From assembly GCA_009838525.1 (NCBI GenBank), contig VXRJ01000010.1, forward strand, positions 222,520-286,519: a DNA stretch of 64,000 nt, written 5' to 3'. Source of the DNA: Acidobacteriota bacterium (GTDB lineage Bacteria; Acidobacteriota; Vicinamibacteria; Vicinamibacterales; UBA8438). A program made the translations under genes and the position numbers. How positions within the stretch are numbered: the first letter of the stretch is position 1; each line of letters opens with the position of its first letter. Positions 3 to 6,538 of the stretch are shown in pieces. The notes below the pieces were generated by a model, which was given only the letters and a program-made list of their open reading frames with translations, made no database searches and was not told the DNA's origin.

Positions 3-242
3 TTCGATACGAGTCAGACGCTGGAGTGCGCCCAGCCCATCACGAAGCGCGTATCGCCCAAGGATGCGCGGAACGACTGCACGTTCTTCGAAGCGCGGGT
101 CACTGTAGAAAGGGAAACCCATTCCCGCGCGGCGCCGGCGCCGACCGTGCCGGACGAAGATGCGCCACAGTCGGTTTCCCCGGACGAGCCGTCGCCTGAC
201 GCGGCCAGCGCCCGGCAGGCGTTCGACGATTTATTCAAGTAA
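3..242 (+). CDS. C-terminal part of a small Cys-rich conserved protein (5' end outside window)
   Basis: The frame is open from the window edge and ends with TAA at 240-242, giving 79 visible residues. It contains an ECAQP element followed by KDARNDCTFFE. This resembles the end of a small conserved Cys-rich, zinc-ribbon-like protein in which Cys pairs precede a 'K-ArN-C-F' signature; that family memory is approximate. The last 40 residues are Pro/Ala/Asp/Ser-rich and look disordered. The stop overlaps the next ATG in a TAATG arrangement, so translation of the downstream disulfide oxidoreductase is probably coupled to this gene. The N-terminus, and any first Cys pair, lies outside the window. 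Confidence 0.7.
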   Translation, partial: FDTSQTLECAQPITKRVSPKDARNDCTFFEARVTVERETHSRAAPAPTVPDEDAPQSVSPDEPSPDAASARQAFDDLFK

Positions 243-910
243 TGGACTTCGCCGGCGCGTCCCGTCTGGAGTCCCGTCTGGCGGCACTCGACTCGCCGGT
301 GCGGCTGGTCTTCTTCACGCAGACGTTCGGTTGTGACAGTTGCCTGATGGCGCGGCAGATCGTCGACCGAATTGTCGCGGCGTCCGATCAGTTGACGGTC
401 GTCGAGCACAACCTCGTGCTCGACAAGGACGAAGCGGCGAGATACGGCGTGGACCGGGCGCCCGCCCTTGCGGTCGTCGGCGGCGATGACGATGGCGGTG
501 CGGGCGACGTGGGCTTTCGCTACTACGGCGTGCCCGCCGGTTTCGAAATGGAGTCCATCGTCGAGGCGATCGAACTGGTCGCCGCCGGGGGCGCGGCGGC
601 CGTGGCGGCCGGGAAGTCGGCCCTCAGCGACGAGACCCTCGATACCGTCGATGCGCTCGACCGGGATGTCAATCTGCGCGTCTTCGTGACGCCCACCTGA
701 CGGTTCTGTCCCCAGGCGGTCAGCCTGGCCCTGCGTCTTGCGGCCGCGAGCCCGCGCATCACCGCCTCGGTGATCCAGGCGACCGAGTTCCCTGACCTCG
801 CCCAACGGTACCGCGTCACCGGCGTGCCGAAGACGGTGGTGGACGACGCGATCGAGATAGTCGGCGCCCTCCCCGAAGCGGAGTTCGTGGCGCAGGCTCT
901 CGGCGATTAG
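242..910 (+). CDS. Glutaredoxin-like protein disulfide oxidoreductase, probable selenoprotein (UGA at 698-700 read as Sec)
   Basis: This is a two-domain thioredoxin-fold protein of the archaeal/bacterial PDO (glutaredoxin-like domain protein) type. ATG 242 to TGA 698 gives 152 residues, but the same frame continues past the TGA to TAG at 908-910. The full product is 222 residues, the usual PDO length. Domain 1 carries CDSC (C31-C34), then DRAPA and a GVPAGFE element. Domain 2 has VFVTPT, then the TGA, then RFCPQAV, and later a VPKTVV cis-Pro element. In PDO proteins the residue at the TGA is the first Cys of the second CxxC, so UGA gives U153-R-F-C156. A hairpin fitting a bacterial SECIS follows at 712-728. 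The likely role is cytosolic thiol-disulfide exchange. The alternatives, a nonsense mutation or a sequencing error, fit less well because the reading frame, the motif position and the hairpin all agree. SelA/B/C/D genes are not in the window. Confidence 0.85.
712..728 (+). promoter_or_regulatory. Candidate bacterial SECIS element
   Basis: A perfect 6-bp stem (CCAGGC 712-717 with GCCTGG 723-728) closes a 5-nt loop GGTCA. The stem starts 11 nt after the UGA, and the loop starts 17 nt after it. The loop opens with GGU, like the SelB-binding loop of the E. coli fdhF SECIS, where the apical stem also begins about 11 nt after UGA. The element lies inside the coding sequence, as in bacterial selenoprotein mRNAs. 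Confidence 0.75.
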
Positions 911-1002: not shown

Positions 1003-3399
1003 ATGTCCGTCGCTACCCGCGACCCGGTCTGCGGCATGACCGTGGATCCGGAGCAGTCCCGCTTCTCGTTCGACTACGGCGGCACGACGTATCACTTTTG
1101 TTGCGGCGGCTGCCACGCCGCTTTCCAGCAGGATCCCGAGGCCTTCCTGAAGGCTTCCGGCGGTGCCGCAACCGTCCCCATGATGCATGGCCACCACGCC
1201 GCGCCGACCGAAGAGGCCGCGCGCCCGGACCGGCCATCGCCGGCCGCCCATGGTGTTCCGACGGCGGCCGGTAGTTCGCCCGTCCCTGCGGGCGCCGTGT
1301 ACGTCTGCCCGATGTGCCCGGACGTCCGCGAGACGGAACCCGTGCCGTGCCCCAACTGCGGCATGGCGCTCCAACCGCTCGGGGCGACGCCGGACGAGGG
1401 GCCGAATGTCGAACTGATCGACATGACGCGCCGCTTCTGGATTGCGGCGGCGATCGGATTCCCGGTGTTCGCGCTGGCGATGACGGAGATGGTGGCGGGC
1501 GCCGGCGGACTGCCGATCTCGCGGGCGGTTTCCAACTGGCTGCAGCTTGCCTGCGCGGCGCCGGTCGTCCTGTGGGCGGGCCGTCCCTTCTTCGAGCGCG
1601 CCTGGACATCGCTGGTGAACCGCAGTCCGAACATGTTCACGCTGATCGCCCTGGGAGTGGGCGCCGCGTTCGTCTACAGCGCCGCCGCCACGATTGCCCC
1701 CGGCGCTTTCCCCGACGGCTTCCGGATGAACGGCGGGGTCGAGCCGTACTTCGACACCGCGGTGGTGATCGTGGTTCTCGTCCTGCTGGGCCAGGTGCTT
1801 GAGCTGCGCGCGCGTCACCGGACCGGCGGAGCGCTGCGGGCGCTGCTCGACCTTGCGCCGCCGATGGCGCGCCGCGTGACGGCGGCAGGTGAAGCGGACG
1901 TGCCGCTTGCGGACGTCCAGGTGGGCGACATCCTGCGCGTGCGGCCGGGTGATCGGATCCCGGTGGATGGCGTCGTGACCGAGGGGCGCAGTGCGGTCGA
2001 TGAATCGATGGTCAGCGGCGAACCGATTCCCATCGAGAAGGAGGCCGGATCGCCGGTCGTGGGCGCCACGGTGAATGGCGCCGGCGGTCTCCTGATGCGG
2101 GCCGAGCGGGTCGGCTGCGACACCCTGCTGGCGCGAATCGTCCAGATGGTGTCCGACGCCCAGCGCAGCCGCGCACCCATTCAGCGGGTCGCGGACCAGG
2201 TGGCGAGCGTCTTCGTTCCGGCGGTCGTGTCGGTCGCCGTTGTCGCCTTCATCGCCTGGTCCCTCGTCGGGCCGGAACCGCGCCTTGCCCTCGCGCTGCT
2301 GAGCGCCGTCGCCGTCCTGATCATCGCGTGCCCCTGTGCGCTCGGCCTCGCCACGCCGATGGCAATCATGGTCGGCACGGGCCGCGGAGCCACCGCCGGC
2401 GTGTTGATCCGGGACGCCGAGGCGCTCGAGACGCTTGCGCGCGTCGACACCCTGATCGTCGACAAGACGGGCACGCTGACGGAGGGACGGCCGCGTGTCG
2501 GGACGGTCTCGGGTCCACTGGAGGAGGACGAGCTGCTGCGTCTGGCGGCGGGTCTGGAGCGGGCGAGCGAGCATCCCCTCGCGGCGGCCATCGTCGAGGC
2601 GGCGGAACAGCGGGGCGCCGTTGCGGCGGCGGCCGAGGAATTCGAGTACCGGCCGGGGCAGGGGGTTGCCGGGCGCGTCGAGGGCAGGCCGGTAGTAATC
2701 GGGGCAGCGACGTTCCTGGCGGAACGCGGCGTGGAGGCTGCCGCGCTGGCCGAGGATGCGGAGCGGGCGCGTGAGCGTGGCGAAACCGTCGTGTTCGTGG
2801 CGCTCAACGGTGAGGCGGCAGGGATCATCGGGGTGGTCGATCCGGTCAGGGAGGCCGCGGCCGAGGCGGTGGGCCTGTTGCGGGCGGAGGGCATCCGCGT
2901 CGTGATGGCGACGGGAGACAATCGCGTGACGGCAGGCGCGGTGGCGGCACGGGTCGGCATCGGACGCGACGATATCCATGCCGACGCGCTGCCCTCGGAC
3001 AAGCAGCGGATCGTGTCGGAAGAACTGGCGGCGGGGCGGATCGTCGCGATGGCGGGGGACGGAATCAACGACGCACCGGCGCTGGCCGCGGCGTCAGTCG
3101 GGATCGCGATGGGCACCGGCACCGATATCGCCATGGAGAGCGCGGGGGTGACGCTCGTGCGCGGCGACCTACGGGGCATCGTGAGGGCGCGTCGCCTGAG
3201 CCGGGCGACGATGCGCAATATCCGGCAGAACCTGTTCCTCGCCTTCGTCTACAACGGCGTTGGCGTGCCGGTGGCGGCGGGCGTGCTCTATCCGGTGATC
3301 GGCCTTCTCATCAGCCCGATCTGGGCGAGCGCGGCGATGACGTTGAGCTCGCTCTCGGTGATTGGGAACGCGTTGCGTCTCCGGCGCGCCGCCTTGTAG
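1003..3399 (+). CDS. copA: Copper-translocating P-type ATPase with YHS and heavy-metal-binding N-terminal domains
   Basis: This is a 798-residue P1B-type ATPase that should export copper (or silver) across the inner membrane. The N-terminus has no classic HMA domain. It has instead a YHS domain (about 6-50, with [10 protein letters not shown] and a CCGGCH cluster), a His/Met-containing linker, and a small Cys-rich heavy-metal-binding domain (about 100-128, VCPMCP...CPNCGMAL). The ion-path motif CPC is at 443-445. The phosphorylation motif DKTGTLT starts at D487 and the hinge motif GDGINDAP has its first Asp near 686. CPC places it with the Cu+/Ag+ group rather than CPH or SPC pumps. It follows the selenoprotein candidate by 92 bp on the same strand. 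The start at 1003 lacks a strong ribosome-binding site but gives an intact YHS domain. Confidence 0.93.
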
Positions 3400-3775: not shown

Positions 3776-5409
3776 CGGAACAGGACTCCCGGCGCGAGCA
3801 CGCCGTCCGGATCGAGGGCCGCCTTGACGGCGCGCATGGCGTTGATCCCGTCGTCCCCGTACAACTGCCGCAGCAGCGCCTGCTTTACCTCGTTGCGCCC
3901 GACTCCATGTTCCGCCAGCGGCGATCCGCCGAGACGGACAATCGCGCGCCCGCAGTCGAGAATCGCCTCGCGGCCCCGTCTCACGTCATCGATCGTACGT
4001 GGGATCACGTTCGGATGCACGTTGCCGTCGGAGATGTGCCCCCAGATCGCGTAGTCGAGGCGACGCGAGTCGAACGCCTCGCGGAACAGCGCGAGGCTCT
4101 CCTCGAAACGGTCGAATGGCACGATCATGTCGGCCGCGGTCTTCGCGATCCCCGTCTCCGAACGCCGCTTCGCGTCACCGACGCGTCGGTTGACTCCTTC
4201 GGGCGCCGCTTCGCGCAGCGCGAGCAATCGCGCCTGCCGGCGGGTGTCGGAGGGGAGTGCGACCTCGGTCCGGTCCAGCACGCCGGCCTCCGCCAACTGT
4301 CGGCAGAGGCGCACGAGCGGGAGGTCAGCGGCATCAGCCGACAGCGCACCGGCGATCTCGGCATACGCTGACGCCGGATCGGTTGCGGCGGCGCTGCCGG
4401 CCGGCAGCTCCATCTGCGCGAGCAGGGCCACCTCCGTGCCGTCCGGCCACGCGATCCCCTGCCGCCGCGCCGCCCCATCCTCACTGACGATCTGCAGGCT
4501 GCGTGCATCGAGATGTTCGATTGCCGCGATGTCGACGCCCGACACGCCGTCCGTTCGCCAACAGTCGAGGGCAGCCTGTCGCAGGCTCCCCGCCAGGGCC
4601 ACCGCGGCCGCTTCGCTCGGCAGCGGGATCCAGACCATCGCAATGCGCGGCGCGGGCATGACGACGGCGAAGGTGATTCCCGTGACGACGCCCAGCGTTC
4701 CCTCCGCGCCGATGAAGAGGTCGATCAGGTCCATTTCCGGCTCGGCGAAGTACCCGGCCGAGCACTTCACCACGTCCGGCATGCGGTAGGGCGGCGCCGG
4801 CACGCGCCGAACCGCGCCCGCCGTTTCCACCTCGAACCAGCCGTCCGGATGCGCGGTAGTCTCGCCTCGCGCGATGTCGAGCACTTCACCCGACGCAAGG
4901 ACGACCGTCAGCCGTCGCACCCAGTCCCGCGTCGTGCCGTACTTGAACGTGGCCGCGCCCGCCGCATTGGTCGACACGACGCCGCCCGCGAACGCGCCGT
5001 CGAATGTGGGGGCCGGCGGGTAGAACCGGTCGCTCCGCGCGAGCGCCGCCTGCAGCGTCGCGATCGGCACCCCGGCCTCGACAGTCACTTCGTCGCCGGT
5101 GATGCGGCCGATCCGGTCGAACCGTTGCATGTCGACGACCACTTCACCCATGGGCGTCGCTCCGCCGGTAAGGGAAGACTGGGCGCCGACCGGCAGGATC
5201 CGGGCGCCCCCGGTAACGAGCGCGGCCACGTCCGCCTCTGTCGCCGGTCGCGCCACGCCAGCGGCATGCCCACCCGGGAAGTGCGCCGCATCCTCCAGGT
5301 ACGCCGTCACGACGGAGGCATCCGTCCGGACCGCCGTTTCGCCCGCGTGTCCGTGCGGCGCTCGCGCCGTGATGCGATGAGAAGGCACCGGGCCGGCATT
5401 ATCGCGCAT
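3772..5409 (-). CDS. FAD-binding oxidase (GlcD/D-lactate dehydrogenase-like)
   Basis: This 545-residue protein has the PCMH-type FAD fold followed by the FAD-linked oxidase C-terminal domain. The N-terminal FAD domain contains an ILPVGAQSSLTGG pyrophosphate-binding stretch and a GGVVSTNAAGAATFKYG element. The C-terminal domain contains IWGHISDGNVHPN and ends with LAEHGVGRNEVK, the conserved His-containing motifs of glycolate oxidase subunit D and D-lactate dehydrogenase. It should oxidise a 2-hydroxy acid to the 2-oxo acid; the substrate is not determinable. There is no Fe-S extension, so it is not a full GlcDEF fusion. ATG 5409 is chosen because upstream residues in the open frame have no family similarity and run into the divergent dsbA-like gene. 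Confidence 0.88.
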   Translation of the reverse strand: MRDNAGPVPSHRITARAPHGHAGETAVRTDASVVTAYLEDAAHFPGGHAAGVARPATEADVAALVTGGARILPVGAQSSLTGGATPMGEVVVDMQRFDRIGRITGDEVTVEAGVPIATLQAALARSDRFYPPAPTFDGAFAGGVVSTNAAGAATFKYGTTRDWVRRLTVVLASGEVLDIARGETTAHPDGWFEVETAGAVRRVPAPPYRMPDVVKCSAGYFAEPEMDLIDLFIGAEGTLGVVTGITFAVVMPAPRIAMVWIPLPSEAAAVALAGSLRQAALDCWRTDGVSGVDIAAIEHLDARSLQIVSEDGAARRQGIAWPDGTEVALLAQMELPAGSAAATDPASAYAEIAGALSADAADLPLVRLCRQLAEAGVLDRTEVALPSDTRRQARLLALREAAPEGVNRRVGDAKRRSETGIAKTAADMIVPFDRFEESLALFREAFDSRRLDYAIWGHISDGNVHPNVIPRTIDDVRRGREAILDCGRAIVRLGGSPLAEHGVGRNEVKQALLRQLYGDDGINAMRAVKAALDPDGVLAPGVLFR

Positions 5410-5464
5410 GGTCACGCACGATCCCGCATGGACGCGCACGCGGGCGGGGTGTACAGTCGGCGGC

Positions 5465-6538
5465 ATGATCAGGGCATATCGAAGGTTGGCGCGGCGCTTG
5501 AGTGCACCGGCGGTCGCGGTCGTTGCGACGACGCTGGCGCTGGCGCTGGCGTTCGGCGGCGTAGCGGTGGCCGCCCAGCAGGCGGATGGCGACGTCGTGG
5601 CACGCATCGGTGATATCGAGGTGACGTTCGGCGAGCTGGAGGCGGCGTGGCGGGATAACGACGCGGCGTCGCGCCTGCGCATGCTGCAGGAGCTGTACGA
5701 CACGCGGCGCCGCGCCCTCGACATACTGCTCGGCGACAAGCTGATAGAACGTGAAGCGGCCGCCCGCGGGATGACCCGTGAGGACTTGCTCATTGCCGAA
5801 TTGCCCAGCCGGACGCTGGAGATAACCGAAGAAGAGATCCAGTTGCTCTGGGACCGTAACAAGGACCGTTTTCCGGATCAGACGATCGAGGATCTCCGGC
5901 CCGAGATCGTTGCCGCCATCGAGCAACAGCGTCCGATGCAGGCGCTGCACGCCTACACGAACGAACTGCGGGAAGCGGCGGGTAATGTCGTCGTCCTGCT
6001 CGATGCTCCGCGGCAGACTATCGAAACGCTCCCGGACGATCCGGCGCGGGGGCCCGCGGAGGCGCCGGTGCAAATCGTCGAGTTCTCCGATTTCGACTGC
6101 CCCTACTGCCAGCGCGCGACCGAGACGATTGAACGGCTCCTCGAGGAGTTCACCGGCCAGATCCGTTTCGTCTACAAGGATTATCCACTTCCGACCCACC
6201 CGGACGCCTTCAAGGCGGCGGAAGCGGGCAACTGCGCGCACGAGCAGGGCCGCTTCTGGGAGCTGCACGACACGATGTTCGCCAACCAGGGCGCCCTCAG
6301 CGTCGACGAGCTGCACGCGTACGCAGAGAACCTCGGACTGGACACCGACGCCTTCGCCGAGTGCCTCGACAGCGGCCGGCACACCGCCACGGTCGAACGC
6401 GACATGGAGATCGGCGACAGTTACGGCGTCTCTTCCACGCCCACCCTTTTCCTCAACGGCCGTGCGGTTCTTGGCGCCGCTCCCTACGACACGTTCGCGG
6501 ACATCGTCCGCGAAGAAATCGCCGCCGCGGGACGGTAG
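5465..6538 (+). CDS. DsbA-like thioredoxin-fold protein with an N-terminal SurA/PpiC-like helical region
   Basis: This 357-residue exported protein begins with a basic n-region, a hydrophobic core and a VAAQ cleavage region. Residues of about 40-185 are helical, with a DVVARIGDIEVTFGELE start and LLGDKLIEREAAARG, as in SurA/PpiC N-terminal domains. The C-terminal half is a DsbA/Thioredoxin_4 domain with CPYC at 212-215, a VYKDYPLPTHP element, and the cis-Pro loop SSTPTLFLNG. It should act as a periplasmic thiol oxidase or isomerase with a chaperone-like N-terminal part. ATG 5465 follows 19 unlikely residues of the open frame and starts the signal peptide. The gene is divergent from the FAD oxidase and 4 bp upstream of a lipoprotein gene, so the two are probably an operon. 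Confidence 0.85.
   Translation: MIRAYRRLARRLSAPAVAVVATTLALALAFGGVAVAAQQADGDVVARIGDIEVTFGELEAAWRDNDAASRLRMLQELYDTRRRALDILLGDKLIEREAAARGMTREDLLIAELPSRTLEITEEEIQLLWDRNKDRFPDQTIEDLRPEIVAAIEQQRPMQALHAYTNELREAAGNVVVLLDAPRQTIETLPDDPARGPAEAPVQIVEFSDFDCPYCQRATETIERLLEEFTGQIRFVYKDYPLPTHPDAFKAAEAGNCAHEQGRFWELHDTMFANQGALSVDELHAYAENLGLDTDAFAECLDSGRHTATVERDMEIGDSYGVSSTPTLFLNGRAVLGAAPYDTFADIVREEIAAAGR

Follow-up and report, generated by a model that had tools for sequence, protein, structure and literature searches.

A predicted selenocysteine-containing protein disulfide oxidoreductase in Acidobacteriota, its Sec/Cys exchanges and the loss of its first active site in relatives

Does an in-frame TGA in a redox enzyme gene of an Acidobacteriota bacterium end the protein, or is it read as selenocysteine (Sec)? 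Genes with such a codon are easily missed, or truncated at the TGA, in automatic annotation. The gene that raises the question lies near the start of a 64,000-nucleotide stretch of DNA (the window; the gene, its active sites, its hairpin and the gene just upstream, all described below, are on its forward strand) from a Vicinamibacterales genome of 4.29 Mb (97% complete, 38 contigs). Its frame runs from an ATG at 242 to a TAG at 908–910, and the sole interruption is a TGA at 698–700, codon 153 of 222. A reading of the letters alone, which we call the sequence-only reading, had proposed that the gene encodes a two-domain protein disulfide oxidoreductase (PDO) with Sec in its second active site.

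The product, with Cys substituted for Sec, matched the family model TIGR02187 (PDO_seleno_TRX) over residues 8–219 with 212.6 bits (cut-off 185), and the genomic DNA read through the TGA scored 204.2 bits. In a profile search of the genome, this gene was the only TIGR02187 match and had exactly one internal TGA. The PDO structures 2ywm, 2ayt and 1a8l aligned over nearly the full product, across the TGA, at E 2e-29 or better, and homology to 2ywm and 1a8l predicts two thioredoxin folds, each with a CxxC motif (U allowed). The first, N-terminal active site, C-D-S-C at 332–343, corresponds in the alignments to CESC in 2ywm and to CQYC in 1a8l. The second, C-terminal site, U-R-F-C (UxxC), spans 698–709, and its TGA (residue 153) is aligned to the Cys that opens the second CxxC in solved PDOs, for example 2ywm and Pyrococcus furiosus 1a8l (VFVTPTCPYCP). 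Judged by homology, 242–910 is a two-domain PDO gene. Translation, the TIGR02187 match and the structural alignments bear out three points of the sequence-only reading, namely a two-domain frame that continues through the TGA to the TAG, a first active site that keeps CDSC, and a TGA where the second site would have its first Cys. No tandem repeats were found near the gene.

Next, we turned to relatives of the gene. Scanning named genomes gave 14 PDO relatives, each from a MAG of the Acidobacteria, Vicinamibacteria or Terriglobia, and 13 of them carry TGA at the position of residue 153; the exception (L030) has TGC, and its locus has neighbours in common with the window. Among 396 genomes of the phylum, the family was present in 74: 29 have TGA forms (30 genes), in 42 the form is uninterrupted and scores above the cut-off, and three have weaker matches. 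In every TGA-bearing gene examined from the phylum, the TGA was found in the second active site, at the same codon. One genome (G385) holds two nearly identical Sec-PDO copies (L087 and L088) on two short contigs, either a duplication or redundancy of assembly or strain.

If the TGA were a true stop, as it is in the standard bacterial code, the 152 open codons before it would make a one-and-a-half-domain protein of 152 residues, and the remainder would be a separate or vestigial frame. The TGA would, however, cut the second thioredoxin fold exactly at its catalytic codon, and an in-frame restart at GTG 770 (46 aa) would be without the catalytic motif. Substitution rates also speak against a stop. 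For the window against L021–L023, the three relatives closest to it, dN/dS after the TGA was 0.11–0.19, and among these relatives it was about 0.08–0.13. In the comparisons with the window, dN was 0.11–0.12 after the TGA versus 0.26–0.34 in the 36 codons just before it. The downstream part is thus better conserved than the stretch directly ahead of the TGA, and no less conserved than the upstream part. By these rates, the sequence past the TGA is under purifying selection, and we regard termination at codon 153 as very improbable.

The genome also holds the means to insert Sec. We detected SelA (462.8 bits), a SelB frame (304.4 bits; cut-off 242), SelD (308.5 bits) and a tRNA-Sec (60.6 bits; gathering 47), that is, all four components for which the sequence-only reading had suggested a search. 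Across the phylum, SelA was present in 28 of the 29 genomes with a TGA-PDO versus 18 of the 42 with a Cys-PDO (Fisher p 2e-6, a value that overstates independence because the genomes are related). The sole TGA-PDO genome in which SelA gave no match at E 1e-30 (G333, locus L072) does encode SelB (335.6 bits) and a tRNA-Sec (72.8 bits), and its selA is probably missing through an assembly gap. These results bear on the reading that general suppression or an altered code makes UGA stand for Trp or Cys. Relatives have Cys at this position, so Cys would work there. Nevertheless, the genome has machinery dedicated to Sec, which accompanies the TGA form throughout the phylum, and the TGA is confined to the redox-active codon instead of occurring at scattered ones; we consider Trp or Cys decoding highly unlikely. 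A nonsense mutation or sequencing error that turned a second-site TGC or TGT into TGA and left a pseudogene would take one base change, and Cys homologues with shared neighbours such as L030 exist, but this reading, to which we give next to no weight, is refuted by a TGA that 13 of 14 independent assemblies and 30 genes from 29 genomes have in common, that is conserved across genera and families and is thus neither an error nor unique to this strain, and that stands in an otherwise undamaged frame with purifying selection downstream and Sec machinery in the genome.

We then asked whether the mRNA carries a signal for Sec insertion. A putative bacterial SECIS hairpin, CCAGGC-GGTCA-GCCTGG, lies at 712–728, with its loop at 718–722, and was found just as the sequence-only reading had described it: a 6-bp stem that starts 11 nt past the TGA and a GGTCA loop. 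The bSECIS model calls for a loop of 3–9 nt, a stem of 4–16 bp, a G in the first two loop positions, a spacing of 16–37 nt and low free energy (PMC13188914). The hairpin's geometry fits this model (loop of 5 nt, stem of 6 bp, loop starting 17 nt after the UGA), and the 45 nt following the TGA fold at -15.5 kcal/mol. Since the DNA is GC-rich, the hairpin of the window is unexceptional by itself: 11.5% of synonymous recodings score as well (p 0.115, not significant for a single gene). Because this single-gene test is weak, we used the hairpin solely as comparative evidence.

Upon comparison across the family, the best-scoring hairpin in most Sec genes has a loop that begins 17–18 nt after the TGA and typically reads GGTCA, GGTC, GGT or GTC. 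The median best hairpin score was 15.8 for Sec forms versus 11.2 for Cys forms, and p was 0.05 or less against synonymous recoding in 10 of 35 Sec forms versus 2 of 29 Cys forms. The six stem pairs in the window's register form in 53–82% of 34 distinct Sec genes, and one of them varies among these genes (C-G, A-T, G-C). Over eight positions, pairing in this register filled 59% of cells in Sec forms, versus 42% in Cys forms and 22–52% when the register was slid; the 42% kept by Cys forms indicates that part of the pairing stems from common coding sequence. Judging from these alignments, the recurrence of a hairpin at one place across Sec homologues and the conserved TGA together exceed chance. 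Rfam models, run at gathering and relaxed levels over the window and over the local stretch, returned no SECIS, a null that is uninformative because bacterial SECIS elements differ widely.

Taken together, the conserved TGA, the Sec machinery, the purifying selection downstream, the recurring hairpin and the co-occurrence with SelA lead us to conclude that this is a selenoprotein gene and neither a nonsense mutation nor a sequencing error. The central claim of the sequence-only reading, Sec in the second active site, is upheld on the same grounds. The gene very probably encodes a cytosolic PDO of two thioredoxin folds in which UGA 698–700 is decoded as Sec.

How might such an enzyme be made and work? 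SelB and Sec-tRNA-Sec would decode the UGA as Sec, directed by the hairpin just downstream. In the predicted protein, Sec153 would stand in for the Cys that makes the attack in the C-terminal CxxC. If the Cys enzymes are a guide, this site may do most of the thiol-disulfide exchange; mutants of the Sulfolobus PDO showed that the C-terminal site is fundamental for thiol transferase activity (PMC7465337). Sec153 would form a mixed selenide-sulfide with the substrate, which Cys156 would resolve, and the N-terminal CDSC pair may pass on electrons that an NAD(P)H-dependent reductase supplies, much as the Sulfolobus PDO is reported to be reduced by NADPH through thioredoxin reductase (PMC7465337). 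The location is presumably cytosolic. Sec has been reported to raise catalysis in UxxC thioredoxin and glutaredoxin selenoproteins (PMC13188914). The proposal of the sequence-only reading that Sec in the C-terminal site of a PDO would make it a stronger reductant is plausible.

The sequence-only reading suspected that the variant was undescribed, and here it was wrong. The Sec form of the PDO family is already known, and the gene of the window is a correct selenoprotein call within it. UxxC selenoproteins of TIGR02187 have been listed since 2006, when a "homolog of AhpF amino-terminal domain" was reported as a selenoprotein in Carboxydothermus and Symbiobacterium (PMC1794560), and the model itself bears the name PDO_seleno_TRX. 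Reviews of 2022 and 2026 list TIGR02187, UxxC and ABB15282.1 (PMC9312934, PMC13188914), and a Sec form of the family was described in Asgard archaea (Sifarchaeia) in 2024 (PMC11227280). These AhpF N-terminal-domain homologues, for example those of Symbiobacterium thermophilum and the Sifarchaeia, share the family model, UxxC and a single Sec with the protein of the window, but they come from other phyla, whereas ours is from Acidobacteriota (Vicinamibacterales). The N-terminal domain of AhpF (1zyn, 1hyu), to which residues 89–210 of our protein are similar, has tandem thioredoxin folds with a CxxC in the second; hence we presume that the Sec of ABB15282.1 also lies in the second CxxC. Unlike AhpF, the PDO of the window is free-standing, without a flavin reductase part, and has a CxxC in its first fold as well. 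With the Cys-type PDOs (P. furiosus 1a8l, 2ywm/2ayt and Sulfolobus), of which the characterized ones are from thermophiles, it shares two thioredoxin folds and two active sites, but Sec replaces the first Cys of the second. Selenoprotein thioredoxins and glutaredoxins (UxxC) also have Sec at the N-terminal position of a thioredoxin-fold CxxC, but are single-domain proteins, whereas the PDO has two domains.

What the present analysis adds is the spread of Sec-PDOs in Acidobacteriota, on which we found no paper within a partial coverage of the literature, together with repeated Sec/Cys exchange and the loss of the first CxxC with Sec kept. A tree of 62 PDO proteins required 11 changes between Sec and Cys, at least 6 of them forced by well-supported branches. 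L021–L023 and the protein of the window group together in a supported Sec clade, which has the Cys form L030 as its neighbour. Two close relatives from one genus, a Sec form (L057, genome G331) and a Cys form (L042, genome G323), both come from genomes with SelA, and this pair suggests a recent exchange. Two further genomes (G253 and G261) have Cys forms that nest among the Sec forms of their order; neither genome yielded SelA, or SelB above the cut-off.

Upon inspection of the first active site, we noted that several relatives have lost the N-terminal CxxC and kept Sec. These are L072, L074 and L086 among class relatives, and L076, L077, L078, L079, L082, L083 and L085 in one family of the order; the lost sites read, for example, TQTFGGSESG and SQALADPESE. 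Such losses fit the view that the C-terminal site is the essential one. From the lineages concerned (f11 and f12 among the class relatives, and f3, a family of the order), we raise the tentative and rather doubtful idea that the Sec-PDO of Acidobacteriota serves as a main reductase of disulfides in the cytosol and is on its way to an AhpF-like enzyme with one site. In this scenario, Sec might enable a single site to do what otherwise takes two, and the enzyme would have a new reductase partner, which might be a conserved Cys-rich protein encoded upstream. The close Sec/Cys pairs, such as L057 and L042, and the first-site losses offer a natural series in which to ask what advantage Sec brings to an enzyme of thiol-disulfide exchange. 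The main gain is of annotation grade, a reliable selenoprotein call and a phylum-wide Sec/Cys map of one redox enzyme, and the general picture of Sec use is unchanged.

Lastly, we examined the genes around the PDO. The 3′ end of the upstream gene occupies 3–242, its start lying outside the window, and it encodes the Cys-rich protein of 169 aa (L065:7733-8242; CDRCGQ...CEGCGADLHSCAQC...), which had no match in Pfam. Its TAA overlaps the start of the PDO gene (TAATG), an arrangement that suggests possible translational coupling of the two genes. Relatives of this Cys-rich frame sit upstream of the PDO in 21 loci. The Cys-rich gene is itself preceded by one for a reductase-like protein with an NAD-binding domain, which is otherwise found near the PDO only in L030. 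The Cys-rich protein and the reductase-like protein are possible candidate partners of the PDO. Downstream of the PDO, 1003–3399 encodes a heavy-metal P-type ATPase with Cys-rich N-terminal stretches resembling metal-binding ones, and a relative of this ATPase also adjoins the Cys-PDO of L030. A second thiol-disulfide protein is encoded nearby at 5408–6538, where a SurA-like N-terminal part is joined to a C-terminal DsbA/Thioredoxin_4 domain (FDCPYC).
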